Shown piece by piece: positions 3,901 through 62,386 of a DNA stretch of 64,000 bases; position 1 is the first letter of the stretch; each line of letters begins with the position of its first letter. Under the pieces are notes generated by a model. It was not told the DNA's origin, searched no databases, and saw nothing but the letters and a program-made list of their open reading frames with translations. The stretch covers positions 12,059,752 to 12,123,751 of the forward strand of contig OY821742.1 in the NCBI GenBank assembly GCA_963682055.1. The letters are read 5' to 3'. This stretch comes from Primula veris (taxonomy: Eukaryota > Streptophyta > Magnoliopsida > Ericales > Primulaceae). Both the position numbers and the translations under genes were made by a program.

Positions 3901-4701
3901 CTAACAAAATGCCAGACGCATTTAATCACTATGAAATGTCACGAGATCATTTATACATGCTATAAATATGCTTGCAAAGAAAGGCATCTTTGTTGGACGT
4001 CGTGTTCCTCTTGAAATACGTTACTTTTAGTCGAAGCCGCGAAGTAAAGGACACTGTCGTCGGCTGCACAATCTGTCATCCTTCCCAAGTAACGAAGAAG
4101 TTGACAGGTTCTAAATTCGTTTAGCCCTAGTAGAGGTGAACTGAAACTCGTTTATCACATTAAATTATGAAGGATCAAGGAAATGTGTGAATTCTTCATC
4201 ATCCTAAAAATCTCGAAATATCTGTCGATCATGATATCTTATATGGTATTGACTTAAGCAAAACGAGACTTTCATTGATTACTTGTTCATATATTTGGTG
4301 AAAACTGATAATATGAGCAAAGAGATTGGTCTATATGGAAACTTACCTTCCAGTCAAATTCCTTTTGCAAAATGTGTGTGGACCTATCGTTCCGACACCA
4401 CTCAATGTTAAACTAGTTCATTTAATTAGGTATGCGTAATGAAGAGTGATGAGAATAATGAGATTGTACATTTCTCCCCTAGTAGCACAAGGCTTCTCTC
4501 ACACATTGGAATTGATTACGATATGGTTTATTTCTTTGTAATAGACATTATAACGGTCCCCTACTTCATAATTAAGATTTAGAAAATAGTTTCATTTTAT
4601 CAATAAGTTATTTGTTTATGTTTTTAGTTAATTTAAATGTTCATCGTAGCATTTTCTTTAATAGAATATTGTGGCTTACATAAATCGTGGCTTGTCTGAG
4701 A

Positions 4702-5834
4702 AAGTCAATGGATGTTGAAAGAAGCTTGTATTTTTCTCGGTATATATGGGCCACTTATAGAAACTAATTACTTAAGTTAAGTCTAGGTAAATAGAATTAA
4801 ACTTTTGAGTAAGAATAATTTCGTCTCATTTCTGGCATGTATGTTGTAAACAAAGTAATTTCCAAATATGATCACTACATATGAAAACGATGAAAATTCT
4901 TCAAATAGTTTGGAACATTAGTATATCATATTCTTGAAAGGGATCACTGATATCATAAACCAAGTTAGAGAAATAATTAAAGGGGTAAATTTTATTACAT
5001 ATATGTTTACATAAGAAAAATATTTAAATGAAAATTCGAGTTTAATTAATAAACAACATTGATTATTATGTAGTAGGCCTATCATTCTCGGTATGAGACA
5101 CTTTCTTCCTTTGACTTTTATACTACTCTTAATTGATTTTAGCCGATGACTTTTATACTACCCTTAATTAATTTCCAAATAAAACATTGATGGTTCTTTT
5201 TGAACAAAAAACTAAAAAATCATAATTTTCTAGTGAGAAAACCGTGAGACACCTTTGATAAGCTATGAGTCAATAAGAAACTTACTAATGAGACATGTTG
5301 ATAACCTTTTAAGAATTATGGTTTCTTAGTTTTTTGTCACATAGAATTATCAATGATTTTTTTTAAAAATTAATTAAGAGTAGTATAAAAGCAAATGGCT
5401 CAATCAATGCCCGAAGATTACAACAAGGTCATCGGAAGAAAGCGTCTCATAACGAGAATGATAGGCCTACAGAACATTCAATGTTGTTTATTAATTAAAC
5501 TTGATCTTTCATATAAATATGTTTTTTTATGTAACCATATATGCACTTAAATTTACCCCTTTAATTATTTATCTAGCTTGGTTCTTGATATCACTGATCC
5601 CTTTTAAGCATATCATCCACTAATGTTACACACCATTTGAATAATTTTCACGATTTTCATATGTAGTGATCATATTTAGAAATTAATTTGTTTAAAACAT
5701 GCATGCAAGAAATGAGACTAAATTATTCCTAGTCAAATGTTTAATTATTTTTATCTATACTTAAAAAATTAGTTTATATAAGTCACCCATATATACGGAG
5801 AAAAATACATGCTTCTTTCAACATCCTTTGACTT
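4702..5834. mobile_element. Fold-back element with about 530 bp inverted arms
   Basis: The left arm (about 4702-5235) is the inverted complement of the right arm (about 5305-5834) over nearly its whole length, with scattered mismatches and small indels. Matching landmarks are 'aagtcaatggatgttgaaag' at 4702 against the complement of the sequence ending at 5834, 'gtaggcctatcattctcg' near 5072 against its complement near 5458, and 'ttttatactactcttaatt' near the centre. The loop is only about 70 bp. No ORF was seen. This is the shape of a fold-back or long-TIR MULE-type non-autonomous DNA transposon. A copia LTR abuts the right end, so the outer target duplication cannot be read. Confidence 0.75.
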
Positions 5835-6922
5835 TGTTGAACGATGTTCTTCTAATCGATTATTTTAATGATAACAAAATTTGTAAAACATAATAAAAGC
5901 TCGTTTTGCGTACTAATCATTTATCTAGCTTGTTAAAGGTTCGAAATCATAGATTACGTAAATACGAAGCCAACGGTTCAAGCGGAACCTTAATCGGACA
6001 TATAACGAAGAAGTTACGAGCGTTCGAAGAATAACGAGAAAACCGAGAAACTGCCAGAAAAAATGACCGATCGTTTTGGACAAACGACCGATTGTTTTTG
6101 ATCCAAATTCTTCTAGTGAGGTCGTCTGAAAAACGACCGATCGAAATGTCAGAAACGACCGATCTTTTTTGGTCCAAAATGTTCCAGTGAGTTCATGATA
6201 AAAACGACCGATCGTTTTTCCTACAACACCATTGGATAAAAGAATAACACTTCATACAACGGTAACAAGACCTATTATCCTTCAAATAGCCCCCAAATTC
6301 ATTGTTGAAGGCACCCTAATTCACACACAAATTCAAAGAAATTCATCAAGCTTATACTACATATTTCTCACTTGTATTCATATAAATTCTTGAGTGTATT
6401 ATTATTGTAATCATAAAAACACCAAGATATTATTTGTTAGTGAGCGATACTCTTTCGATTCAAATTGTAGAGTAAATTATAAACTCATTTGTGAGCGAGT
6501 GATCGGGTAGAGGCTTTGTAAGCAAGTGTATCTTAAAAGCTCTAGGTCTTTTCATTCGGAATACTCATAAAGTGAGGGGGAGCTTAGTCGGTCGATTAGC
6601 TCATTAGGGTGTAATCTTGGGAAGAAGATTCTAGTAAAATACTCGGTAGTGTGAATACCGAGGAGAGGAGTAGGCGCGTTTTGCCGAACCTCTATACATC
6701 TTGTGTTATTTCTTTTCCCTTGAACTTTTACTTTCCGCACTTATTTATTACTTATTTTGTTTGCTTGGATAGCTTAAAATAGCGTTAAATAGTTAACACA
6801 AGTGTTTAGTTATAAAATACTACTAATTAGCGTCGTTAATAGCTCAAACATTTAATTCTGCGAAAATCGTACGTAAACCTTATTCACCCCCCTCTAAGGT
6901 TTAGACACTTATGGGCTAACAA
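5835..6922 (+). repeat. copia-1 5' LTR
   Basis: It begins TGTTGAACG and ends CTAACA immediately before a tRNA-Met primer site. It is 1088 bp, about 80 bp shorter than the second LTR because of a deletion near 6215. It carries five copies of an ACGACCGATCGT-like 12-mer at about 6057-6216, and the conserved 'cacccccctctaaggtttagacac' region near its 3' end. Confidence 0.85.
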
Positions 6923-9928: not shown

Positions 9929-11097
9929 TGTTGAACGATGTTCTTCTAATCGATTGTTTTAATGATAACAAAATTTATAAAACATGATAAAAGCTCGTTT
10001 TGCGTACTAATCCTTTATCTAGCTTGTTAAAGGTTCTAAATGATAGAATATTTAAATACGAAGTCAACGGTTCAAGCGGAACCATAATCGGACTTAAAAC
10101 GAAGAAGTTACGGGCTTTCGAAGTATAACGAGAAAACCGAGAAATTGCCAGAAAAAACGACCGATCATTTTGGACAAAACGACCGATCGTTTTTGGTCCA
10201 AAATGTTCCAGTGAGGTCGTCTGAAAAACGACCGATCGAAATGACCAAAACGACCGATCGTTTTTGGTCCAAAATGTTCCAGTGAGTTCATGATAAAAAC
10301 AACCGATCGTTTTTCAGAAAATGACCGATCGTTTTCTGCAGAATTCAAAAATTAGCTTTTTAACTTATTCTAGAAAATTGGAAAACTGCTGAAAACTATT
10401 AGATAAAAGTATAACACTTCATACAACGGTAACAAGACCAATTATCCTTCAAATAGCCCCCAAATTCATTGTTGAAGGCACCCCAATTCACACACTCAAT
10501 TAAGCTATCATTTCAAGATCATACTCAAGCTTATACTTCATTTTCTCACTTGTATTCATATAAATTCTTGAGTGTAATATTATTGTAATCTTATAAACAC
10601 CAAGATATTATTTGTTAGTGAGCGATACTCTTTCGATTCAAATTGTAGAGTGAATTGTAAACTCATTTGTGAGCGAGTGATCGGGTAGAGGCTTTGTAAG
10701 CGAGTGTTGCTTAAAAGCTCTAGGTCTTTTCATTCGGGATACTCATAGAGTAAGGGGGAGCTTAATCCGCGGATTAGCTTGTTAGGGTGTAATCTTGGAA
10801 AGAAGATTCTAGTGAAATACTCGGTAGTGTGAATACCGAGGAGAGGAGTAGGCGCGTTTTGCCGAACCTCTATACATCTTGTGTTATTTCTTTTCCCTTA
10901 ATTTTTACTTTCCGCACTTATTTATTGCTTATTTTGATTGCTTGCATAGCTTAAACTAGCATTACATAGTTAACAAAATTGTTTAGTTATAAAATCTACT
11001 AATTAGTATAGTTAATAGGTCAAAGTTTTTATTCCGCGACAATCGTACGTAAACCTTATTCACCTCCCTCTAAGGTTTAGACACTTACGGACCAACA
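9929..11097 (+). repeat. copia-1 second LTR (3' or solo)
   Basis: It is 1169 bp, TGTTGAACG...CCAACA, homologous to 5835-6922 along its length. Six ACGACCGATCGT-like 12-mers lie at about 10155-10335. No polypurine tract precedes it; the duplicated flank does. The sequence after 11097 is unrelated to the flank of the first LTR. Confidence 0.85.
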
Positions 11098-11882: not shown

Positions 11883-12816
11883 TGTTAAAACTATTGCCGA
11901 AGTTTCAAGATGTTGTTATGCATTTCAGTTACAACCTCAGTTATAACTCAAGTCTCAGTTATAACTCAAATTGTAACTGAATAGAACTGAATAGTAAAAT
12001 AAGTTGAACACACACTGTTTTGAATATGGAGTTCGATCTAGTGCTAGATCGATGTCTCTGAGGCCCTCACCCGATGATTTATTCATATGTCAAAAACAGT
12101 AACGAGTTTTGAGACTTAAAATACTCAAGCGTATATGTCTAACTCTATATCTCATAACTTAAACACTATCAATTTCTCTAGACCAAAGTCTATGATGGGT
12201 TTTTTTATAATCATTCGTGTGTTTTTGCTCTCTAGAATAATATCTCTCTGCTATTTTCTTTTTTGTGAAGATCTAAGTAATACTATACCTCTACTCCGTT
12301 TATATATTACGGTTACAAAACTAAATCAAATCTTAATCAAATCTTCTTTCTTCAATATTCAATCTTATAATTGATTTGATCTCTTTCCTTTTTCATGTTA
12401 TCAAATAATTACTCATGTTTAGTCTTTGACTTTCAAGAGATATCATCATTAATTCGAAATCATCAACATCTTTCATTATATTGCCTTCAATATCTTTCCT
12501 TCTTTATTTATAGTTGATTTAATTTCTTCTTTTGTAGAATATACTCTCATATCTCGTTAATTTAACCCCTTAACTTCAGCAACTTGATTTGATCTTTAAT
12601 CCACAATATCTAGGAAAATATAAGTCAACAGAATCTTTGGAGATAAATTCGCCATGAACTCAATTATAGGTAAGTTATAACTGAAACTGCTCACAATCTG
12701 TCAAATACTCAACTAACGATTAAAAGCAACTTTTATGTCAATACTATAGTTGTAAATATTTCCACAATCACTGGCAATTAAGTTGGTATTTGAGTCAACT
12801 AAAACTGAACCTAACA
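11883..12816 (-). repeat. copia-2 3' LTR (left)
   Basis: 934 bp beginning TGTTAAAAC and ending CCTAACA on the plus strand (inverted ends TGTTA/TAACA). It is clearly homologous to 26608-27535, including the 'ctctgaggccctcac' block and the AGTTATAACT cluster at 11925-11980. The LTR end overlaps the target duplication of gypsy-A. Confidence 0.85.
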
Positions 12817-12819
12817 AAT
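12815..12819. repeat. Target site duplication of gypsy-A, left copy
   Basis: CAAAT, repeated at 22823-22827 directly after the other LTR of gypsy-A. Five bases is the usual Ty3/gypsy duplication length. It spans the last two bases of the copia-2 LTR. Confidence 0.9.
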
Positions 12820-14619
12820 TGTCACGTCCCAAAATCCTAAAAACGGATATTAAGGCATGACCTTTTTAAACAAAAGTAAAAAGGAACCTGTTGGTACAAA
12901 ATTTAAATTTTAAAAGAAAACACAAGCGAGCTAAAGGAGCAATTAATCAATTAAATATAAAAGTGTTTGCCAAACGCGGCTACGAGACAAAACGGTTTTG
13001 ACAAAATTATATAAAAAGAAATAAACAAATGTAATTTGCCCGTAGGCTACAACCTCAAAATTAGTCTAAGGAGATAAAACAATTCAAGAAGCCCCGAACC
13101 CATGCGCTACTTCGCTAATGCTCCTATCCGAACGTGCCAACCTATGTCGTACCTGAAATACAAAACTGTAACGGTGAGTCCCACACATACATAGACGGGA
13201 CGGCACCACAAAATACCGTCACTTCATCCCATAAATGCAAGAACTCACAAACGACAACTACGATAATCAACATATAAAAAGAAATATAATAACATCCTAC
13301 AACGAGATAAATTAAATAACTTAAACACACATCGACCTCTCACGCCACCTACCCCAGTCCGTAAGGTAGGTCATTCCCTATCCCTTCAGCCGTCTTATGT
13401 CCCCGGAATTAGGGAGAGACATAGACCATTGCTAACATAAAAATAGATTTATAGTGTGCACTTGGACCTCTCACGCCACTCGTCCCAGTCCGTAAGACGA
13501 GTCATTCCCTATCCCTTCGGCCGTCTTATGTCACCGAAATTAGTGAGAGACATGGACCATTGCTAACAATAAAATAAATATAGTGCACACTGGGACCTCT
13601 CACGCCACTCGCCCCATTCCGTAAGACGAGTCATTCTCTATCCCCTCGGCCGTCTTATGTCCCCGGAATTAGGGAGAGACATAGACCATTACCACTATTC
13701 TAAATCACAAGGCCTCGGCCAATAATATAAAACCATTCAATTAACACATTCACATACGTCACTCTAATGTAATTCAACATAACCCATAATCATAGGTGCT
13801 AGATTCACAACTAGCCAAACAACTCCAATCAGACATTTTAACAAACACCTTGTATGCATAAACTACAATTCATCTTTATTCAACATAAATTTACCCAATT
13901 TCATCAACAACTATATAATCACATAATCAACTCCTAAATCATGCAAACTCATCCATAATCTCATTAATTCGAAATTAATATGTCTCAAGTTTCAACTTCT
14001 ACAATTCAAACAATGAAATTAAAATTACAACAAATAAACCCCAATTAACAATTTAAGAACATAATTAATAATAAAGGCAAAAACCCACAATTTATAATAA
14101 ACACAAAACCAAAACCTAACATACACTCTCGTCTAGTCGCAATGGATAATCCCCGTTAACTTAGTGCGTAGAGGAGATGCTTCCGGTAAGAACTCGCTAG
14201 TGGTGGTTTCCTCCTCTTCTTCTTCTTCCTCTTTTTTTCTCTTTTTCTCTCTTTTCTCTCTTTTTCTCTCTTGTTTTAGGTTACTGTTTTAAAAGAAGTG
14301 GGCTGATTTGAAGATGTAAAAACAGTTTTGAGAAAGTTTGTGGTAACGAACTATTTGGTCCCCAAAGTTCTAAAAGTTAACTCTAAATCCAAAAATATTG
14401 TTTTACTACTCAAAAATAACAAATCTTTAGAAACAAACCTATTGGGTCCTTTTTATTTATAAAATTAGTAACACGTTTTTAAAATAAAAATTTTCGGAAG
14501 AGTTTCGGTTTTTGGCTAAAAATTAGTCGAGTGACCGGTTTTTGGTAAAATTTGTATAAAATGTTTTTTGGTAAATTAAATCATAAATAAAACCATTTAT
14601 AAAAATACGGGATGTTACA
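12820..14619 (-). repeat. gypsy-A 3' LTR
   Basis: 1800 bp, TGTCACGTCC...ATGTTACA on the plus strand. It contains three tandem units of roughly 125-130 bp at about 13335-13690, each with a hairpin (13347-13371, 13478-13502, 13607-13631), and a TTC/CT microsatellite at about 14209-14275. Confidence 0.9.
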
Positions 14620-19921: not shown

Positions 19922-20099
19922 TACTACTCATACATGATAAAAGCTCGTTTTACAAATTAATCACTTTATCAAGCTTTCTAAGGTTCAAAATCATAGCATA
20001 CTGAAATACGAAGCCAACTCTTCAAGCAGAATCAAATTCGGAGTACAAACGAATTAGTTACAAGCGTTTGAAGTATGGCGAGAAAACCGCAAAATTACC

Positions 20100-20340
20100 A
20101 GAACACGACCGATCGTTTTTGACAAAAAGACCGATCGTTTTGGTCTAAAAATTACCTGAGAGGTCTGAAAAATACGACCAGTCGTGTTGACAGACGACCG
20201 ATCGTTTTTTGGTCCAGAGAGGTCTGAAAAATTCGACTGGTCGTTTTGACAGACGACCGATCCTTTTTTGGTCCAGAGAGGTTTGAAAAATTCGACCGAT
20301 CGTTTTTGACAAAACGACTGGTCATTTTTCTGCAGAAAAG
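20100..20340. repeat. 12-mer array in gypsy-A leader
   Basis: About eight copies of ACGACCGATCGT-like motifs, several mutated (for example 'cgaccagtcg', 'cgactggtcg'), in the leader between primer site and gag. It is the decayed counterpart of 54628-54875 in gypsy-B and resembles the arrays in the copia-1 and copia-4 LTRs. Confidence 0.85.
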
Positions 20341-20982: not shown

Positions 20983-20994
20983 GCTCTGATACCA
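20983..20994 (-). other. Primer binding site of gypsy-A
   Basis: The minus strand reads TGGTATCAGAGC three bases after the 5' LTR, complementary to initiator tRNA-Met. Confidence 0.85.
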
Positions 20995-20997
20995 ACT

Positions 20998-22822
20998 TGT
21001 CACGCCCCAAAATCCTAAAAACGGATATCAAGGCATGACCTTTTTAAACAAAAGAAAAAAGGAACCCATTGGTACAAAATTTAAATTTTAAAAGAAAACA
21101 CTAGCGAGCTAAAGGAGAAATTAATCAATTAAATATAAAAGTGTTTACCAAACGCGGCTACGAGACAAAACGGTTTTAACAAAATTATATAAAAAGAAAT
21201 AAACAAATGTAATTTGCCCGTAGGCTACAACCTCGAAATTAGTCTAAGGAAATAAAACAATTCAAGAAGCCCCGAACCCATGCGCTACTTCGCTAATGCT
21301 CCTATCCGAACGTGCCAACCTATGTCGTACCTGAAATACAAAACTGTAATGGTGAGTCCCACGCACATACATAGACGGGACGGCACCACAAAATACCGTC
21401 ACTCCATCCCATAAATGCAAGAACTCACAAACGACAACTACGATAATCAACATATAAAAAGAAATATAATAACATCCTACAACGAGATAAATTAAATAAC
21501 TTCAACACACATCTATAGCATACATGGACCTCTCACGCCACCTACCCCAATCCGTAAGGTAGGTCATTCCCTATCCCTTCGGCCGTCTTATGTCCCCGGA
21601 ATTAGGGAGAGACATAGACCATTGCTAACATAAAAATAGATTTATAGTGCGCACTTGGACCTCTCACGCCACTCGTCCCAGTCCGTAAGAAGAGTCATTC
21701 CCTATCCCTTCGGCCGTCTTATGTCCCCAGAATTAGGGAGAGACATAGACCATTGCTAACAATAAAATAAATATAGTGCATACTGGACCTCTCACGCCAC
21801 TCGCCGCAGTCCGTAAGACGAGTCATTCCCTATCATCTCGGCCGTCTTATGTCCCCGGAATTAGGGAGAGACATATACCATTGCCACTATTCTAAATCAC
21901 AAGGCCTCGGCCAATAATATAAAACCATTCAATTAACACATTCACATACGTCACTCTTACGTAATTCAACATAACCCATAATCATAGGTGCTAGATTCAC
22001 AACTAGCCAAACAACTCCAATCAGGCATTTTAACAAACACCTTGTATGCATAAACTACAATTCATCTTTATTCAACATAAATTTACCCAATTTCATCAAC
22101 AACTATATAATCACATAATCAACTCCTAAGTCATGCAAACCCATCCATAATCTCATTAATTCGAAATTAATATGTCTCAAGTTTGAACTTCTACAATTCA
22201 AACAATGAAATTAAAATTACAACAAATAAACCCCAATTAACAATTTAAGAACATAATTAATAATAAAGGAAAAAACCCCCCAATTTATAATAAACACAAA
22301 ACCAAAACCTAACATACACCCTCGTCTAGTCGCAATGGATAACCCCCGTTACCTTAGTGCGTAGAGGAGATGCTTCCGGTAAGAACCCGCTAGTGGTGGT
22401 TTCTTCTTCTTCTTCTTCCTCTTCCTCTTTTTCTCTCTTTTTCTCTCTTTTCTCTCTCTTTTCTCTCTCTTTTCTCTCTTTTCTCTCTTGTTTTAGGTTA
22501 CTGTTTTAAAAGAAGTGGGCTGATTTGAAGATGTAAAAACAGTTGGTAACGAACTATTTGGTCCCCAAAATTCTAAAAGTTAACTCTAAATCCAAAAATA
22601 TTGTTTTACTACTCAAAAATAACAAATCTTTAGAAACAAACCAATTGGGTCCTTTTTATTTATAAAATTAGTAACAGGTTTTTAAAATAAAGTTTTTCGG
22701 AAGAGTTTCGGTTTTTGGCTAAAAATTAGTCGAGTGACCGGTTTTTGGTAAAATTTGTATAAAACGTTTTTGGATAAATTAAATTATAAATAAAACCATT
22801 TATAAAAATACGGGATGTTACA
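20998..22822 (-). repeat. gypsy-A 5' LTR
   Basis: 1825 bp, TGTCACGCCCC...ATGTTACA on the plus strand. It is highly similar to 12820-14619; part of the length difference is the longer CT microsatellite at about 22405-22492. The same three tandem hairpin units lie at about 21525-21875. Confidence 0.9.
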
Positions 22823-45432: not shown

Positions 45433-46604
45433 TTTGGTCCGTAAATGTCTAAACCTTAGAGGGAGGGTGAATAAGGTTTACGTACGATTTTCGCGGAATA
45501 AAAACTTAGAGCTTTTAACTAAGCTAATTAGTAGATTTTATAACTAAACAATTTTGTTAACTATTTAATGCTAAGTTAAGCTATGCAAGCAATCAAATTA
45601 AGCAATAAATAAGTGCGGAAAATAAAAGTTAAGGGAAAAGAAATAACACAAGATGTATAGAGGTTCGGCAAAACGCGCCTACTCCTCTCCTCGGTATTCA
45701 CACTACCGAGTATTTCACCAGAATCTTCTTCCCAAGATTACACCCTAACGAGCTAATTGACCGATTAAGCTCCCCCTCACTCTATGAGTATCCCGAATGA
45801 AAAGACCTAGAGCTTTTAAGCTACACTTGCTTACAAAGCCTCTACCCGATCACTCGCTCACAAATGAGTTTATAAATCACTCTACAATTTGAATCGAAAG
45901 AGTATCGCTCACTAACAAATAATATCTTGGTGTTTATAAGATTACAATAATATTACACTCAAGAATTTATATGAATACAAGTGAGAAAATGAAGTATACG
46001 CTTTGAGTATGATCTTGAATTTGATAGCTTAATTGAGTGTGTGAATTGGGGTATTTTTCTCAAAGGATTTGGGGGTATTTGAAGGCTCAAAACTCTTTGT
46101 TACCGTTGTATGAAGGTCTATCTCTTTATCCATTGGATTTAAACAGTTTCCCCTTTTTCCAGAATAAGCCAAAAAAGCTGTTTTTGAAATTCTCCAGAAA
46201 ACGATCGGTCGTTTTCTGAAAAACGATCGGTCCTTTTTATCATGAACTCACTGGAACATTTTAGACCAAAAACGATCGGTCGTTTTGGTCATTTCGATCG
46301 GTCGTTTCTATGACGACCTCACTGGAACATTTTGGACTGAAAACGATCGGTCGTTTGTCCATAACGATCGGTCGTTTTGTTCTGGCAATTTCTCGGTTTT
46401 CTCGTTATACTACGAATGCCCGTAACTTCTTCGTTTTAAGTCCGATTATGGTTCCGCTTGAACCGTTGGCTTTGTTTTTAAATATTCTATCATTTCGAAC
46501 CTTTAACAAGCTAGATAAATGATTAGTACGCAAAACGAGCTTTTATCATATTTTACAAATTTTGTTATCATTAAAACAATCGATTAGAAGAACATCGTTC
46601 AACA
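45433..46604 (-). repeat. copia-4 3' LTR
   Basis: About 1170 bp, homologous to 9929-11097 in inverse orientation. The start on the minus strand is TGTTGAACG at 46604. The other end lacks the expected terminal ACA ('ggaccaaaaatgc'), so the last bases are mutated or lost. Six ACGATCGGTCGT-like motifs lie at 46197-46385. Confidence 0.85.
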
Positions 46605-48759: not shown

Positions 48760-48890
48760 AAACGATCGGTCGTTTTGGGAAGAAATTGTTCCAGAGACCT
48801 CATTGAAAAAACGATCGGTCATTTTTTCAGAACGATCGGTCGTCTGAAACAAAACGATCGGTCATTTTTACAGTCGATCGGTCGACTGTA
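48760..48890. repeat. 12-mer array in the leader of the extra ORF
   Basis: Five copies of CGATCGGTC-type motifs (three variants end in 'ggtcatttt', one is 'gtcgatcggtcgactg') lie within 130 bp, between the end of RNase H and the ATG of the extra ORF. The same motif array occurs in this element's LTR in the same orientation relative to coding. The position suggests a promoter or protein-binding region for the extra ORF. Confidence 0.85.
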
Positions 48891-52078: not shown

Positions 52079-53972
52079 TGTAACATCCCGTATTTTTATA
52101 AATGGTTTTATTTATGATTTAATTTATCCAAAAACGTTTTCTTCAAAATTTTACCAAAAACCGGTCACTCGACTAATTTTTTAACCAAAAACCGAAACTC
52201 TTCCGAAAAACTTTATTTTAAAAACCTGTTACTAATTTTACTAATAAAAAGGACCCAATAGATTTGTTTCTAAAGATTTGTTATTTTTGAGTAGTAAAAC
52301 TATATTTTTGGATTAAGCGTTAACTTTTAGAACTTTGGGGACCAAATAGTTCGTTACCTCAAACTATATCAAAACAGCTTTTTATAAACCTTCCAGCCAC
52401 TTTTCAAAAGCAAAAACCAGCAAAATACAGAAGAGAGAGAGAGAAGAAGAGAGAAAAAGAAGAAGAAGAAGAAGAGGAAAAGGAAACCACCGTTAGCGGG
52501 CTTATACCGGAAGCATCTCCTCTACGCACTAAGGTAACGGGGGTTATCCATTGCGACTAGACGAGGGTGTATGTTAGGTTTTGGTTTTGTGTTTATTATA
52601 AATTGGGGGTTTTGCCGTTTATATTAATTGTGTTCTTAAATTGTTAATTGGGGTTATTTGTTGTGGTTTTAGTTCCATTATTTAAATTGTAGAGGTTGAA
52701 GCCTTAGATATATTTATTTCGAATTAGCGAGATTATGGATGGGTTTGCATGATTTATTAGTTGTTTATGGGATTATATAGTTGTTGATGGTATTGGATAA
52801 ATTTATGTTGAATAATGGTGAATTGTAGTTTATGCATGCAAGGTGTTTGTTAAAATGCCCGAATGGAATTTTATGTTATTGGAGTTGTTTGGCTAGTTGC
52901 GAATTTAGTACATATGGTTATGTGTTATGTTGTATTACGTTACGTGACGTATGAGATGGTGTTAATTGATTAGTATAATATTATTGGCCGAGGCCGTATG
53001 AGAATGTGTTATTTGCGTGGATTTATATTATTGGCCGAGGCCTTGTGTGTTAGCTGTAGTGGCAATGGTCTCTGTCTCTCCCTAATTCCGGGGACAGAAG
53101 ACGGCCGAGGGGATAGGGAATGACTCGTCTTACGGACCGGGGCGAGTGGCGTGAGAGGTCCCAGTGTGCACTATTTACTTTTATGTTGCAATGGTCTATG
53201 TCTCTCCCTAATTCCGGGGACATATGACGGCCGAAGGGATAGGGAATGACTCGTCTTACGGACTGGGGCGAGTGGCGTGAGAGGTCCAAGTGCGCACTAT
53301 AAATCTACTTTTATGTTGCAATGGTCTATGTCTCTCCCTAATTCCGGGGACATATGACGGCCGAAGGGATAGGGAATGACCTACCTTACGGACCGGGGTA
53401 GGTGGCGTGAGAGGTCCATGTATGCTTAGATGTATGTTGATGTTAGTTAATTTATTTAATTTATCGTAGTTGTAGAATGTCGTTATATTCTTTTTGATTC
53501 GTAGATTATCGTAGTTGTAGAATGTCATTATATTTCGTTTTATACGTCGTTTATCGTAGTTGTAGAATTTGTGAGTTCTTGCATTTATGGGATAGAGTGA
53601 CGGTATTTGTGGTGCCGTCCCGTCTAGTTAGGTGCGTGGGACTCACCGTTACAATTTTTGTCTTTCAGGTACAAATTAGCTTGAGGCGTTGGCTAGGTGC
53701 ATTAACGCGGTATTGCATGGGTTCGGGCTTTTGCTTTCTTTTCATGTATATTTTATTTTGAGGTTGTAGCCTGCGGGCAATTTACATTCGTTTATTTTAT
53801 CTCGTCTTGTAGCCGCGTTTGGCAAATACTTTTATTTATTGTTTTATTGTTCCTTTAGCTCGCAACTCTTTTCTTTTAAAAATTTTAAATTCGTACCAAC
53901 AGGTTTCGTTTTCCTTTTATTTAAAAAGGTCATGCCTCGATGTCCGTGTCTTTTGGATTTTGGGGCGTGACA
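52079..53972 (+). repeat. gypsy-B 5' LTR
   Basis: TGTAACATCCCG...GGGGCGTGACA, 1894 bp. It contains a GA/GAA microsatellite at about 52432-52485, three tandem units of roughly 125-130 bp at about 53064-53425 with hairpins at 53123-53147, 53249-53273 and 53379-53403, and a TATA-like 'tataaat' at about 53298 between the second and third units. It probably supplies the element promoter. Confidence 0.96.
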
Positions 53973-54609: not shown

Positions 54610-55135
54610 GAATCTTTATTTTCTGCAGAAAAACGATCGGTCGTTTGCCCAAAACGATCGGTCGAAATTTTTCTGTCCCTCTGGAAGAAATTGCACCAAA
54701 AACGATCGGTCGTTTGCCCAAAACGATCGGTCGGAATTTTTCTGACTCTCTGGAAGAATTCTTACCAAAAACGATCGATCGTTTTCCCAAAACGATCGGT
54801 CGAAATTTTGGTGATCTCACTGGAAGAATCTTGATCCAAAACGATCGGTCGTTTTGTCCAAAACGATCGGTCGTGTTCTGGCGATTTTGCTATTTTTCTC
54901 GTTATACTTCAAACGCTCATAACTTCTTCGTTTTAACTCCGATTCTGATTCCGCTTGAAGCGTTGGCTTCGTTTTTCAGTACTCTATCTTTCTGGCGTTT
55001 CAGAATTTTCATTTTCTATTTTTGGAAAAGTCAAGGCGTTTTATCGTCGAAATTGAGAATTCGTAAAAATCAGTTTTTGAACCTTAGAAAGTTTGATTAA
55101 GCGATTGATTTGTAAACCGAGCTTTTATCATGTAT
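54610..55135 (+). repeat. gypsy-B leader module with 12-mer array
   Basis: Eight ACGATCGGTCG motifs (one 'cgatcgatcg') come in pairs at 54628-54875, separated by 'ctggaagaatt'-type spacers. Then comes about 250 bp containing 'ctcgttatacttc', 'cataacttcttcgttttaa', 'ttccgcttgaagcgttggct' and 'cgagcttttatcatg'. The same blocks, in the same internal order, occur in the copia-1 and copia-4 LTRs but inverted relative to coding direction. The translated peptide repeat from this region (KTIGRNFS) is a by-product, not a protein. Confidence 0.88.
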
Positions 55136-55191: not shown

Positions 55192-58100
55192 ATGTATGTA
55201 GTAATGGCTATTACTACAAGGACTGGTGGAAGGAGACCAGCTACACGCGGGGGCGCATCACCATCAAGCGGTGCGGCTACCCGAGGTGGAGCAAATGTAA
55301 GAGGAGGAAGAGCTCCAAGGGGACGGGGAACAACTCGAGGAAGAAGGGCTACTAGAGGTCGTGGGGGAAGAGGTAACACTAATGCCCTACTACCTGAGCA
55401 ACCCGAGGCGGAGGTAGAGGTTGAGAATGTTGATGAGGAAGTGAATGTGGAAGAAGAAGAGACCTCTGCACCGGAACCGGAAACGGTCAATGCTAATCAA
55501 GTGATGACCGACCCTCAGAAGGTGGTGCAAATGATGGTGCAGAATGCACAAGCTGGGAGTTCAAGCAACAATGGATTGCTTAACTTCACCCGATTGGGGG
55601 CTCCGACTTTCGATGGGTTAGGTGAACCATCCATAGCTGAGGGATGGGTGGATGAAATGGAGAAATATTTATCGGCTGCAGGAATAGTAAATGGGGAGCA
55701 AAGGATGAATATGGCTCAGTTTCACCTAAAGGGTGAAGCACGGAAGTGGTGGTTGGGAATTGTGGATACATACGACATAAGCAACTTCGAATGGAACGAG
55801 TTCATCGAATTGTTTAATCGACAGTTCCTTCCAGATTCCTATAAGGATGAAATGAGGAGGCGTTTTGAGGAATTGTATCAAGGGGGTATGACCGTTCAAG
55901 CATACCAGCTAAAGTTTACCTCACTCTCGAGGTATGCCCCAGAATCTGTTATAGGGGGTGCAGAAAGATGTAGGAGATTCATGAAGGGGTTGAATCCGAC
56001 CATCTCGTTACAATTGGCATCGGCTCGACATGTCAACTATAATGAATTGGTAAAATCAGCCCAAGCTGTGGAAGGAGCTCTACTCCATAACAAGCGAATC
56101 GCGGAGAAGTCGAAAGCCGGAAATGCTCCGAGGGAAGATAAAAAGCGGACTTGGGATGTGGCGAATAATTCGCGATTTCAACAACCGGGAAGAGGAGAGA
56201 GGAATTTTAACCCACCGCCGACAAACGTCGTGATAAGGGGAGCGTGTTTCCACTGTGGAGACGCGAGCCATCGACAATTCGAGTGCCCTAGGGTCCAATG
56301 TAGGACTTGCAACCGATTTGGACATACGGCAAGGGTTTGTCCCGGGGGACAAGGAAGAATCGACACCAACCGACCCTTTAACCAACCTAGGTTGCCACCA
56401 CCACCACCAAGAGGACCAGGATTCGTACCACCACATCAATTACCTGGGAACCAAGGGGGAGGGTCTCGAGGTAACCACCAAGGAGGGGGAAACCGTGGGA
56501 ACTATCGAGGAGGCTATCAGGGCCCGGGAAACCGAGGAAATCATGGAGGAAATCGAGGACCGCAAGGAAACCCACCAATTCAAGCTCGTCTATTTGCCTT
56601 GCCACAGTTGCCAAACCAAGGAGATCCGGCAAATGTACAAGGTATGGTTCTTGTGTGCTCATCTTGGGCACATGTTCTTTTCGATACGGGGGCGTCGCGT
56701 TCTTTTATATCTAGAAGTCTAGTTGCGTCTTTGTCATTAGAAATTGGGGTTCTAGAGAACCCGATTGTTGTAGAGACTCCTGTTGGGGGTCGAGTTGTGT
56801 TGGACCGAGTGTGTCGGTCTTGTGAGATGGTGGTCGCGGACCACGTGTTTATATTTGATTTAATTGTTATAGAGATGTCGGGGTTCGACGTGATTCTTGG
56901 AATGGACTGGTTGGTTCATTTCAACTCTTTCATCGATTGTGTTCGACGAAAGGTTTTCCTTACAACTTCATCTGGAGATGAGGTGTTCTTTCAAGGGGAA
57001 AGGGACTCTACCCTTTCTTCTATTCCATATTATTCCAAGCGGGTTGTGGGCAACCTGTCTTGTCTTTTGGCTAATCTCTCGATAGTGGATAACGACGAAG
57101 AAGTGGAAATGTGGCCACGCGTAGTGGACGAATTTCGAGATGTGTTTCCGAAGGATCTACCGGGGTTGCCACCGAAGAGAGGGTTAGACTTTTCTATCGA
57201 CCTGGTACCGGGAACGGCACCCGTAGCCATCTCCCCGTACCGTTTGGCTCCAGCAGAGTTGAAAGAGTTAAGTAAGCAGTTAGAAGAACTGCTAGAGAAG
57301 GGGTTTATTAGGCGGAGTACGTCACCGTGGGCGGCACCGGCCTTATTTGTGCAAAAGAAAGATGGATCGATGAGGATGTGCATCGACTATCGAAAGCTAA
57401 ATAGGGTGACTGTTAAGAATAAGTACCCACTGCCTCGAATTGACGATTTGTTTGACCAACTGAAAGGAGCGACGTTCTTTTCAAAAATCGACTTGCGATC
57501 AGGCTATCACCAATTGAGGGTGAAGGATGAGGATATTTCGAAAACGGCCTTTAGGACCCGGTATGGTCACTATGAGTTTGTGGTCATGCCGTTCAGGTTA
57601 ACTAATGCGCCGGCAGCATTTATGGAGTTAATGAACCGAATCTTTAAGGAGTATCTCGACAAGTTCGTGGTGGTCTTCGTCGACGATATTTTGATTTACT
57701 CGAGTTCAAGAGAGGAACACGAGGAGCATCTCCGTTTAGCGTTGCTCACGTTGAGGGAGCACCAACTTTACGGAAAATTCAGCAAATGTGAGTTTTGGCT
57801 AAATGAGGTGAAATTTCTTGGACATGTGATCTCGGAAGAAGGGGTAAAGGTGGATGCGACGAAAATTGAGGCGGTTTCGAATTGGACACAACCGAAGAAT
57901 GTGTTCGAGATTCGAAGTTTCTTGGGGTTAGCGGGGTACTATCGACGGTTCGTCAAGGATTTCTCTAAGTTAGCGACTCCAATGACTTACCTTACCAAGA
58001 AAGGGGTGAAGTTCGTGTGGAGTGAGGCTTGCGAGAAAGCTTTCCTAGAGCTCAAAAAGCGGTTGACTAGTTCTCCCATACTAGTTATTCCCGAGCAAGG

Positions 58101-60024
58101 AAAGGGTTATCAAGTGTATTGCGATGCATCGAAAGAAGGCTTGGGTTGCGTCTTGATGCAAGACGGAAAGGTTATCGCATATGCTTCGCGACAACTAAAG
58201 ATTCACGAAAAGAACTATCCGACTCATGACCTAGAGCTAGCGGCAATAGTTCATGCGTTGAAGATATGGAGGCATTATCTGTTCGGAGAAAGGTTCGAAG
58301 TGTTCTCGGATCATAAGAGCTTAGGGCATATCTTTACTCAACGTGATCTAAATATGCGACAACGACGATGGATGGAATATTTGGAACAGTACGACTACGA
58401 CTTGCACTATCATCCGGGAAAGGCCAATGTAGTGGCGGATGCTTTGAGTCGAAAGTCCCATGCGACCTTAGCGCATGTGGCGATCGAGGAATGGAGGATG
58501 ATGGGAAAAGTGAACGAGTTCGACTTGGAGTTGGGACATGTTAATGGGGGGACTTTGTACACAATAGTGGTACAACCGGAACTTCTAAGTAGGGTTCTAG
58601 AAGCACAAGATGGGAACGAGAAAGTGGAGAGCTATGAGAACCAGATGGGTTCTAGCGAAGGATTAGAGGGTTGGACGAAAGGAACCGATGGAGGACTACG
58701 CTTTAAGGGAAGGACTTATGTGACAGAAAACATGAGGAACGAGGTAGTAAAGGAGTTTCATCACTCCCGATTAGCCGTTCATCCCGGCGGGACGAAAATG
58801 TATCACGATGTGAAGAGACAATTTTGGTGGCCCGGAATGAAACGAGATGTAGCTTCATATGTTAGCAAGTGCCTAACTTGCCAGCAAGTGAAGGCAGAAC
58901 ACCAAAGGCCGGCGGGTATGCTCCAACCTTTACCGGTGGCGGAATGGAAGTGGGAAAGGATAGCAATGGATTTTGTGACCAACTTACCTAAGTCGGTAGG
59001 TGGGAATGACGCTGTGTGGGTTGTGGTCGACCGTTTAACCAAATCCGCACACTTCATTGCAATCAAGATGACGAATTCCGTGGAAATCTTGGGACGGAAG
59101 TATATTAAGGAAATCGTTAGACTTCATGGGGTGCCGATTTCGATAGTATCGGATCGAGACGCGAGGTTTGTGTCGAGGTTCTGGGGTGCATTGCAAAATG
59201 CCTTAGGGACCAAGTTGACAATGAGTACGGCGTTTCATCCCCAAACGGATGGACAATCGGAGCGGACTATCCAAGTGCTAGAGGATATGTTGCGCGCATG
59301 TGTGAACGACTTTAAGGGAGGTTGGGAGAACCATCTACCCTTGGTTGAGTTTGCATATAATAATAGCTTTCAAGCTAGTATTGGCATGGCACCTTTCGAG
59401 GCTTTATACGGGCGGCCGTGTAGGTCTCCGGTGTGTTGGACCGAGGTGGGAGAAGCGGAAATGTTAGGACCGCAATTGGTTCAAGAAACGACAGAAAAGA
59501 TTAAGTTAATTCGGCAAAGGCTTGAGACTGCCCGAAGTAGGCAAAAGAGTTATGCGGATAAGAGGAGGAGACCTTTGGAGTTCGAAAAGGGGGATCAAGT
59601 ATTTTTGCGAGTTTCGCCCAGAAAGGGGATTATGAGGTTTGGCTCTAAAGGGAAGTTGAGCCCGAGATTTATCGGACCATTTGAGATCGTGGACCGAGTT
59701 GGAGAAGTTGCTTACCGGTTGGACTTGCCACCAAAGTTGGCGGGGGTTCACCCGGTGTTCCATGTGTCGATGTTGAAAAAGTATCATCACGACCCTTCAC
59801 ACGTGGTGGACTTTGAAGACATTGAGGTTAGTGCGGATGTGACCTACGAAGTGGGACCTATGAGGATTATCGATGTGCAAGAGAAGGAACTTCGAGGAAA
59901 TACTATTAGATTGGTAAAGGTGATTTGGAAACACCACGGGGCCGAGGAGGCAACTTGGGAACGCGAGGATGAGATGAAGAGGAAATATCCTAATCTCGAC
60001 TTTTCTTTAGGTACTTTTCTTTAA
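55192..60024 (+). CDS. gag-pol: gypsy-B gag-pol polyprotein
   Basis: 1610 codons, uninterrupted. The first ATG is 55192; the Met at residue 5 (55204) aligns with the likely start in gypsy-A. Order: Arg/Gly-rich N-terminus (about 10-70); capsid (about 140-300, [28 protein letters not shown]); two CCHC knuckles (C352-C365 and C370-C383); protease DTGA at 498-501; RT with [11 protein letters not shown] and FVDD at 829-832; RNase H ([28 protein letters not shown]); integrase with H1191, H1197, C1227, C1230 and the D1260, D1321, E1357 triad (35 residues between the last two); GPF motif; and a chromodomain-like end ([14 protein letters not shown]). Residue 802 is Arg in MPFRLTNAP, where the gypsy-A copy has Gly. 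It makes particles, copies the RNA and integrates the DNA; the chromodomain class is known for targeting heterochromatin. Confidence 0.97.
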
Positions 60025-60492
60025 ATACATTCTAATTTCGGGACAAAATTTCTTTATCGGGGAAGGGTTGTAACGCCTAGAGTTTGGAGTTTATTTTTGG
60101 TTGTAACGCCTAGAGTTTGGAGTTTATTTTTGGTTGTAACGCCTAGAGTTACGAAGTTGTTGAGTTGTCTTTTATTATGTTTGATATTGCATATAGGTGT
60201 TTACCTTATTTGAGATTCTTACATGTTGTTCATGTATTGAATTATGGAGTTGTTACGGGTTGTGAACCCTTATGTTTGATATTGCATATTTACCTTATTT
60301 GAGATGCTTATGTGTTGTTCATGTGATGAGTTATGGAGCTGTTACGGGTTGTGAACCCTACGTATTTTATTTTTGAATTATCACACGAATTGAGCGTTTA
60401 CATTCTTATGGTCTTATTGTAATTTTATCATTTCTGGGTATAGTTGTTTAGATAGGAAATTTCGGGACGAAATTCTTTTAAGGAGGGTTAGC
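60025..60492 (+). repeat. gypsy-B 3' UTR with tandem repeats and polypurine tract
   Basis: Three features follow the stop codon. First, a PPT-like block 'aatttcgggacaaaatttc...ggggaagggt' at 60033-60068 followed by TGTAACGCC. Second, a 33 bp unit starting 'ttgtaacgcctagag' twice in full (60068-60133) plus a partial third. Third, a duplicated segment of about 90 bp ('tgtttgatattgcatat...gggttgtgaaccct') at 60177-60360. The real polypurine tract AAGGAGGG lies at 60480-60487 before the 3' LTR. Gypsy-A carries matching structures at 14745-15060. Confidence 0.85.
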
Positions 60493-62386
60493 TGTAACAT
60501 CCCGTATTTTTATAAATGGTTTTATTTATGATTTAATTTATCCAAAAACGTTTTCTTCAAAATTTTACCAAAAACCGGTCACTCGACTAATTTTTTAACC
60601 AAAAACCGAAACTCTTCCGAAAAACTTTATTTTAAAAACCTGTTACTAATTTTACTAATAAAAAGGACCCAATAGATTTGTTTCTAAAGATTTGTTATTT
60701 TTGAGTAGTAAAACTATATTTTTGGATTAAGCGTTAACTTTTAGAACTTTGGGGACCAAATAGTTCGTTACCTCAAACTATATCAAAACAGCTTTTTATA
60801 AACCTTCCAGCCACTTTTCAAAAGCAAAAACCAGCAAAATACAGAAGAGAGAGAGAGAAGAAGAGAGAAAAAGAAGAAGAAGAAGAAGAGGAAAAGGAAA
60901 CCACCGTTAGCGGGCTTATACCGGAAGCATCTCCTCTACGCACTAAGGTAACGGGGGTTATCCATTGCGACTAGACGAGGGTGTATGTTAGGTTTTGGTT
61001 TTGTGTTTATTATAAATTGGGGGTTTTGCCGTTTATATTAATTGTGTTCTTAAATTGTTAATTGGGGTTATTTGTTGTGGTTTTAGTTCCATTATTTAAA
61101 TTGTAGAGGTTGAAGCCTTAGATATATTTATTTCGAATTAGCGAGATTATGGATGGGTTTGCATGATTTATTAGTTGTTTATGGGATTATATAGTTGTTG
61201 ATGGTATTGGATAAATTTATGTTGAATAATGGTGAATTGTAGTTTATGCATGCAAGGTGTTTGTTAAAATGCCCGAATGGAATTTTATGTTATTGGAGTT
61301 GTTTGGCTAGTTGCGAATTTAGTACATATGGTTATGTGTTATGTTGTATTACGTTACGTGACGTATGAGATGGTGTTAATTGATTAGTATAATATTATTG
61401 GCCGAGGCCGTATGAGAATGTGTTATTTGCGTGGATTTATATTATTGGCCGAGGCCTTGTGTGTTAGCTGTAGTGGCAATGGTCTCTGTCTCTCCCTAAT
61501 TCCGGGGACAGAAGACGGCCGAGGGGATAGGGAATGACTCGTCTTACGGACCGGGGCGAGTGGCGTGAGAGGTCCCAGTGTGCACTATTTACTTTTATGT
61601 TGCAATGGTCTATGTCTCTCCCTAATTCCGGGGACATATGACGGCCGAAGGGATAGGGAATGACTCGTCTTACGGACTGGGGCGAGTGGCGTGAGAGGTC
61701 CAAGTGCGCACTATAAATCTACTTTTATGTTGCAATGGTCTATGTCTCTCCCTAATTCCGGGGACATATGACGGCCGAAGGGATAGGGAATGACCTACCT
61801 TACGGACCGGGGTAGGTGGCGTGAGAGGTCCATGTATGCTTAGATGTATGTTGATGTTAGTTAATTTATTTAATTTATCGTAGTTGTAGAATGTCGTTAT
61901 ATTCTTTTTGATTCGTAGATTATCGTAGTTGTAGAATGTCATTATATTTCGTTTTATACGTCGTTTATCGTAGTTGTAGAATTTGTGAGTTCTTGCATTT
62001 ATGGGATAGAGTGACGGTATTTGTGGTGCCGTCCCGTCTAGTTAGGTGCGTGGGACTCACCGTTACAATTTTTGTCTTTCAGGTACAAATTAGCTTGAGG
62101 CGTTGGCTAGGTGCATTAACGCGGTATTGCATGGGTTCGGGCTTTTGCTTTCTTTTCATGTATATTTTATTTTGAGGTTGTAGCCTGCGGGCAATTTACA
62201 TTCGTTTATTTTATCTCGTCTTGTAGCCGCGTTTGGCAAATACTTTTATTTATTGTTTTATTGTTCCTTTAGCTCGCAACTCTTTTCTTTTAAAAATTTT
62301 AAATTCGTACCAACAGGTTTCGTTTTCCTTTTATTTAAAAAGGTCATGCCTCGATGTCCGTGTCTTTTGGATTTTGGGGCGTGACA
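60493..62386 (+). repeat. gypsy-B 3' LTR
   Basis: 1894 bp; no difference from 52079-53972 was found on reading both, including the microsatellite and the three hairpin units (offset 8414). Confidence 0.96.

Follow-up and report, generated by a model that had tools for sequence, protein, structure and literature searches.

How does a segment of the 5' leader of a Ty3/gypsy retrotransposon come to resemble the LTRs of Ty1/copia elements, in inverse orientation? Ty1/copia and Ty3/gypsy are treated as separate lineages. An earlier reading of this locus had claimed such a shared module from the letters alone. We examined the claim in a stretch of 64,000 nucleotides ("the window"; G000:C3:12059752-12123751 in a 436.5-Mb genome of Primula veris), and followed the module to other loci of the same genome.

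Retrotransposons of the window

The element that we call gypsy B lies on the forward strand, with LTRs at 52079-53972 and 60493-62386 (window self-BLAST). The LTR pair shows 0 differences in 1895 aligned columns. A 5-bp target duplication, AAAAT, flanks the element (ends and duplication read from the flanking sequence), and the PBS is directly 3' of the 5' LTR. The gag-pol ORF (55204-60021, forward strand) contains gag, protease, RT, RNase H, integrase and SH3, and a chromodomain below the curated cut-off (Chromo match E 4.3e-4, 20.6 bits; Pfam cut-off 25.1). The domain order of the gypsy elements (gag, protease, RT, RNase H, integrase) is that of Ty3/gypsy and, together with the weak, sub-threshold C-terminal chromodomain, that of Ty3/gypsy chromoviruses. 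They may belong to the Tekay/Del lineage, as LTR ends and PBS suggest. NCBIfam profiles gave a single match, below cut-off. The stretch that separates gypsy B gag-pol from the 3' LTR contains a 33-bp tandem repeat (60066-60150; 100% matches over 2.6 copies).

Gypsy A lies on the reverse strand (LTRs at 12812-14619 and 20990-22822; K2P 0.0325). Copia 1, on the forward strand, has its 5' LTR at 5835-6921 and its 3' LTR at 9929-11097 (K2P 0.087). Immediately before it, 4701-5835 holds a self-inverted match (1157 bp, 80%). Copia X, on the reverse strand, has its sole LTR in the window at about 46604-45430. It contains an RVT_2 domain and an env-position ORF matching PF20167 (47345-48559). The order of LTR, env-position ORF and RT ORF suggests that the three form one element.

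Gypsy leaders and copia LTRs share an inverted module

We placed the module of the gypsy B 5' leader at about 54621-55134 (forward strand, antisense relative to copia), which corrects the boundaries of 54610-55135 given earlier. It is also present in the gypsy A leader (about 19930-20340, reverse strand), in the 5' and 3' LTRs of copia 1 (5888-6220 and 9982-10343, both forward) and in the copia X LTR (46186-46560, reverse). Window self-BLAST paired gypsy B with the copia 1 3' LTR (54699-54991 with 10335-10039), the copia X LTR (54687-54991 with 46186-46494) and the copia 1 5' LTR (54720-54987 with 6218-5949). Gypsy A was paired with both copia 1 LTRs (19932-20270 with 9982-10338; 19932-20216 with 5888-6176). 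The blocks follow the same order in gypsy leader and copia LTR, and the module is antisense to copia relative to coding direction. The antisense matches to all three copia LTRs bear out the reversal that the sequence-only reading had described.

Part of the module is an array of short boxes. In gypsy B it consists of eight 12-mers of the ACGATCGGTCGT type, an imperfect palindrome (54633-54874, forward strand; period about 69 bp, pairs 21-22 bp apart). Scored with at most 2 mismatches, 12-mer sites form six clusters in the window: in the three copia LTRs, in both gypsy leaders, and 5' of the env-like ORF of copia X (48762-48885, reverse strand, 5 sites). We counted 53 strand-hits in the window, compared to 0-6 in five simulated 64-kb sequences. 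Set beside the LTR array by eye, the copia X cluster at 48762-48885 seems to have its spacer reversed with respect to the 12-mers.

The similarity extends well past the boxes. With the arrays excluded, gypsy leaders and copia LTRs align at 78-83% identity over 113-174 bp. Gypsy B scored 120, 129 and 131 against the three copia LTRs (93/113, 96/116 and 98/118 identical), and gypsy A scored 155, 165 and 151 (137/174, 137/172 and 133/170 identical). The best of 200 dinucleotide shuffles scored 31, and the same-sense control scored 18-24. Chance similarity is rejected by these scores, and similarity in the 12-mers only, the outcome defined beforehand as refuting the claim, by the array-free alignments. 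Upstream of the array we found no similarity above shuffles within the window. These alignments confirm common ancestry as the source of the module shared by gypsy leaders and copia LTRs. The gypsy A module, which had been taken for a decayed form of that in gypsy B, is indeed its counterpart but not merely a decayed copy: ~86 bp (54988-55073) are absent, and the junction is as in the window copia LTRs.

The boxes are inverted as well. Exact CGATCGGTCG is always on the sense strand across nine gypsy arrays, which contain no exact CGACCGATCG; ten copia arrays show the converse, with exact CGACCGATCG always in sense and exact CGATCGGTCG absent. Because the exact motifs are strand-consistent and opposite in gypsy and copia, the array was inverted together with the rest of the module.

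The copia elements are of Sirevirus type

The portion of Bousios et al. 2010 (PMC2829016) used here gives as Sirevirus hallmarks the PBS TATCAGAGC and a AGGGGGAG octamer 10 bp before the 3' LTR, with further copies in the linker. According to it, palindromic RM boxes precede the TATA in high copy within the upper LTR half and recur 5' of env. We observed that the PBS TATCAGAGC adjoins the 5' LTR in copia 1 and in L024, a copia element from another locus. In copia X, one exact AGGGGGAG octamer follows the env-position ORF, and the terminal place is taken by AGGGAGAG, which differs from it by one change. The copia X LTR has 6 palindromic box sites, and 5 more lie upstream of the PF20167 ORF, which from its place appears to be the Sirevirus env.

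Two typical features were absent. The window 12-mer, ACGATCGGTCGT, does not contain the CGG-CCG box core of Sireviruses. In the cited portion of PMC2829016, Tnd-1 alone among the published boxes is without this core, and its box ACAATCGATTGT (Table 3) agrees with the window 12-mer at 9/12 places. The Sirevirus TATA is given there as on average 37 bp after the box array. In the three copia LTRs the TATA is at 547, 632 and 635, and in the copia 1 3' LTR it lies about 215 bp past the array. The window copia elements agree with much of Sirevirus anatomy, and we term them Sirevirus-type because of the missing CGG-CCG core and the distant TATA. They resemble the Sireviruses of that account (PMC2829016, in part) in the palindromic boxes upstream of the TATA and 5' of env and in the PBS, and perhaps in the octamer; they differ in that the array and the neighbouring block also occur, inverted, in a Ty3/gypsy leader.

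Predicted properties of the arrays

The boxes are upstream of the TATA in copia and between the PBS and gag in gypsy, where they would be transcribed. The four arrays measured had a CpG observed/expected of 1.7-2.1. Gypsy B core plus tails had a similarly high ratio, 1.93, so that the boxes are not alone in their CpG richness; the remaining element parts gave 0.87-1.22. The predicted RNA fold of the gypsy B array had a z of −9.1, with paired boxes forming predicted hairpins; the leader upstream of the module also folded better than 20 shuffles (z −4.7).

We compared the two strands in the arrays in hand, including four copia arrays cut by the locus end (L041, L043, L048 and L051). By MFE, the sense strand folded better in 7/9 gypsy arrays, the antisense being as good or better in 2/9, and the antisense strand folded better in 9/10 copia arrays. 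The strand difference was at most 2 kcal/mol in window gypsy A, in copia L024 and in the env cluster. The motif itself suggests a reason for this bias, with G-U pairing on one strand and A-C mismatches on the other.

From their place, the copia boxes are candidate promoter elements. For gypsy, the sequence-only reading had supposed that the module may be exploited for control; the array would most likely bind factors or chromatin at the DNA level, from an internal position, and also form a hairpin array in the RNA. The palindrome-rich region of maize Sirevirus LTRs is described as a small-RNA hotspot (PMC5311732, in the part drawn on here), and a silencing role is therefore also possible for the module. 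The gypsy module could also be a functionless passenger, a reading compatible with the origin proposed below and one whose chances we put not far short of even. Diversity was 0.060 in the 12-mer and 0.090 in spacer columns (18/25 gypsy B-type hits, some misaligned), which is weak evidence of constraint and leaves room for a passenger; what argues against one is that each of nine gypsy arrays has kept at least one exact CGATCGGTCG though unit number varies.

A common core with two tail types

The core block (54874-54987 in gypsy B, forward strand) is present in the aligned copia and gypsy copies. Past it, the module ends in one of two ways. Tail type I (55074-55134 in gypsy B, forward strand) follows the core in copia type I LTRs (nine rows), gypsy A and gypsy C, and is the only tail of the gypsy A leader. 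Tail type II (54988-55073 in gypsy B, forward strand) was seen elsewhere in copia type II LTRs only. The order in gypsy B is core, tail II, then tail I. The distal tail, a feature new to this analysis, thus has two versions, each common to both superfamilies, and gypsy B has both in tandem.

When gypsy B tail II was aligned with five copia II copies, four gave scores of 60, 69, 81 and 82, where the best shuffle reached 30, and the fifth gave 37, where it reached 28. Against copia I tail II scored 14, with 289/300 shuffles as good. Copia I matched gypsy B tail I with scores of 46 and 37, copia II with 17. Homology of the two tails to each other was unsupported (copia I end compared to copia II end, 15/300 shuffles as good; compared to copia L027, 140/300). 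In the tail II tree, gypsy B groups with the inner module of copia L024 (94/85), a match that is short (23/26).

We built a core tree from 112 alignment columns, unrooted and without an outgroup, using 36 rows from 49 hits after 13 near-duplicates had been dropped. The gypsy rows form one clade (95/96); with four gypsy rows added (40 rows), its support falls to 84/89. Grouping gypsy B with copia II was rejected (p-AU = 0.0075 with 36 rows, 0.0154 with 40 rows); both AU tests concern one split, which also joins gypsy A/C with copia I, and the group was named after the alignment had been seen. An origin of the gypsy B core from copia II is rejected by these trees. The core probably entered gypsy once, as judged from the clade, and tail II most likely reached gypsy B separately. 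The occurrence of two tail versions in both superfamilies, with B carrying both in tandem, suggests a second exchange.

The capture between superfamilies proposed by the sequence-only reading thus holds as to shared ancestry, and a gain by gypsy from copia is supported (see below). That reading assumed a single transfer; the two tail types suggest either a second exchange or precise parallel loss. For the latter, one capture from a double-tailed donor would be followed by loss of tail II in gypsy A, gypsy C and copia I. No second transfer would then be necessary, and deleting tail II from gypsy B leaves, by eye, nearly the gypsy A junction. The losses would, however, have to yield an identical gapless junction in gypsy A/C and in copia I, and none of the 20 aligned copia rows carries both tails. 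We consider this course of events unlikely.

The module across the genome

Our sample comprised one genome, the best 40 places per query and about 300 kb of sequence read. First-look candidates numbered 2222 for gypsy B, 2468 for copia I, 2959 for copia II, 2017 for gypsy C and 1288 for gypsy A; the sets may overlap between queries, and the figures are not copy numbers. Three gypsy subfamilies (A, B and C) carry the module among the best 40 places scored per query, gypsy elements having been sampled through the module itself, so that the sample is one of module-bearing gypsies. All 40 scored gypsy B places (best 40 of 2222) cover the 251-bp query with both tails. For gypsy A (best 40 of 1288), 36/40 extend over the type I query from end to end, and each of the remaining four covers at least 149/181. 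Eighteen of the 40 scored copia I places can be joined into nine pairs, with both partners on one strand and 8.5-11 kb between them, as expected of two LTRs per element. We also read 22 arbitrary tiles, ten spanning 10 kb and twelve spanning 5 kb, and the module occurs in three of them, twice in copia LTRs (L024 and L027) and once in a gypsy leader (L028).

Several loci showed further structure. L009-L012 (G000:C3:20984000-21023999) contain gypsy B-type elements head to tail, spaced about 8.43 kb with LTRs shared, as a tandem array. A distance of 3.84 kb separates the copia LTR copies of L024 (5095-10000), which are 99.8% identical across the 1066 bp of the second copy that lie within the locus. 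The module is tandemly duplicated in each LTR, and the element is perhaps short, young and non-autonomous. L027 (7800-8010) is a copia LTR with another box palindrome (ACCCACYGGTGGGT, by eye) next to the same core. In L018 (284-3418) we observed apparent nested insertions, with a copia LTR start within a gypsy LTR and a second gypsy LTR just past the module.

Direction of transfer

The gag proteins of copia 1 and copia L024 share 45% amino acid identity over 296 positions, and gypsy A and B share 84% over residues 1-317. Because the module-bearing copia pair is the more diverged, we infer that gypsy captured a piece of copia U3; this depth argument uses one copia pair, with rates left uncompared between copia and gypsy. 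In a gypsy C copy (L063) the likeness to copia I continues until about 33 bp remain to the LTR terminus. The gypsy C tail has 62/80 and 60/76 positions in common with copia I (0/300 shuffles as good), and beyond the match end it shows no copia similarity (160/300 shuffles as good). The depth of divergence, the place of the module inside the LTR in the copia copies examined and the end of the gypsy C match make transfer from copia to gypsy probable, the core tree being unrooted.

The opposite course would have the module arise in a gypsy leader and pass to copia LTRs from elements resembling gypsy A and gypsy B. As the bearer of both tails, gypsy B could be the full ancestral form, and an unrooted core tree permits this. 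It is at odds with the greater gag divergence of the copia pair and with the presence of the core in L027, where the copia LTR has boxes of another palindrome. In addition, the part of PMC2829016 drawn on reports RM boxes at this LTR place in Sireviruses of distant plants, though not this core. We regard a gypsy source as improbable. Independent insertion of a third element (a small transposon or satellite) into copia and gypsy would explain why homology stops sharply in gypsy, but it is very improbable, as the module ends differ among gypsy subfamilies, no free-standing copy occurred among the few places read (22 arbitrary tiles, those with the module having it in LTRs or a leader, and 13 short loci), and 13/13 of these short loci, retrieved with copia queries and thus selected by copia similarity, extend to the copia LTR terminus.

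Discussion

Starting from the observed homology, inversion, position and two tail types, the explanation that we favour is a single antisense capture of a Sirevirus-type U3 piece by a gypsy leader, with a second tail added later in B (probability roughly 0.7). The donor piece would be the U3 of a Sirevirus-type Ty1/copia LTR, comprising the palindromic-box array and the block between array and LTR start, without TATA box, R, U5 or LTR terminus. A chromodomain Ty3/gypsy element would have received this piece once, in antisense, within its 5' untranslated leader, and the piece would have been kept through the split into at least three gypsy subfamilies, with dozens of scored places each. The gypsy B lineage would later have gained the second tail, of a type otherwise found only in type II copia LTRs, so that material may have crossed between the superfamilies again. 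Direction of transfer and second crossing are the steps that this account adds to the alignments.

Repeated protein-binding sites in a retrotransposon leader are known from the Drosophila gypsy insulator, to which the module is alike by arrangement alone. The same holds for the copia leader enhancer, with repeated protein-binding sites in the leader, cited in the portion of PMC2829016 used. ZAM and Tirant of Drosophila likewise have 5'-leader tandem repeats in a gypsy-type element, those of ZAM having been linked with heterochromatin interaction (PMC5408687, in part); these repeats differ from the module, the likeness being one of arrangement. The recombinant centromeric retrotransposons of grasses, as far as PMC4079200 was drawn on, likewise gave new prolific families via swapped pieces, including LTR and UTR. 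Those swaps were between CR subfamilies of gypsy, whereas here the exchange is between superfamilies and inverted. We found no prior report of such a copia/gypsy transfer in the literature searched, most subscription papers being outside its reach.

More speculatively, and with considerable doubt, control segments may pass repeatedly between Sirevirus-type copia and chromodomain gypsy elements, and the imported array may, through its orientation, serve the gypsy elements as a strand-specific hairpin array in RNA and as a control element in DNA, and so may have helped them to amplify. The module offers two natural contexts for box function, upstream of the TATA and within a transcript. If the proposed origin is true, an inverted control segment has crossed superfamilies and spread in three subfamilies, and repeat classification by LTR or leader similarity would be confounded. 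The non-coding parts of these elements would then have a history independent of pol.
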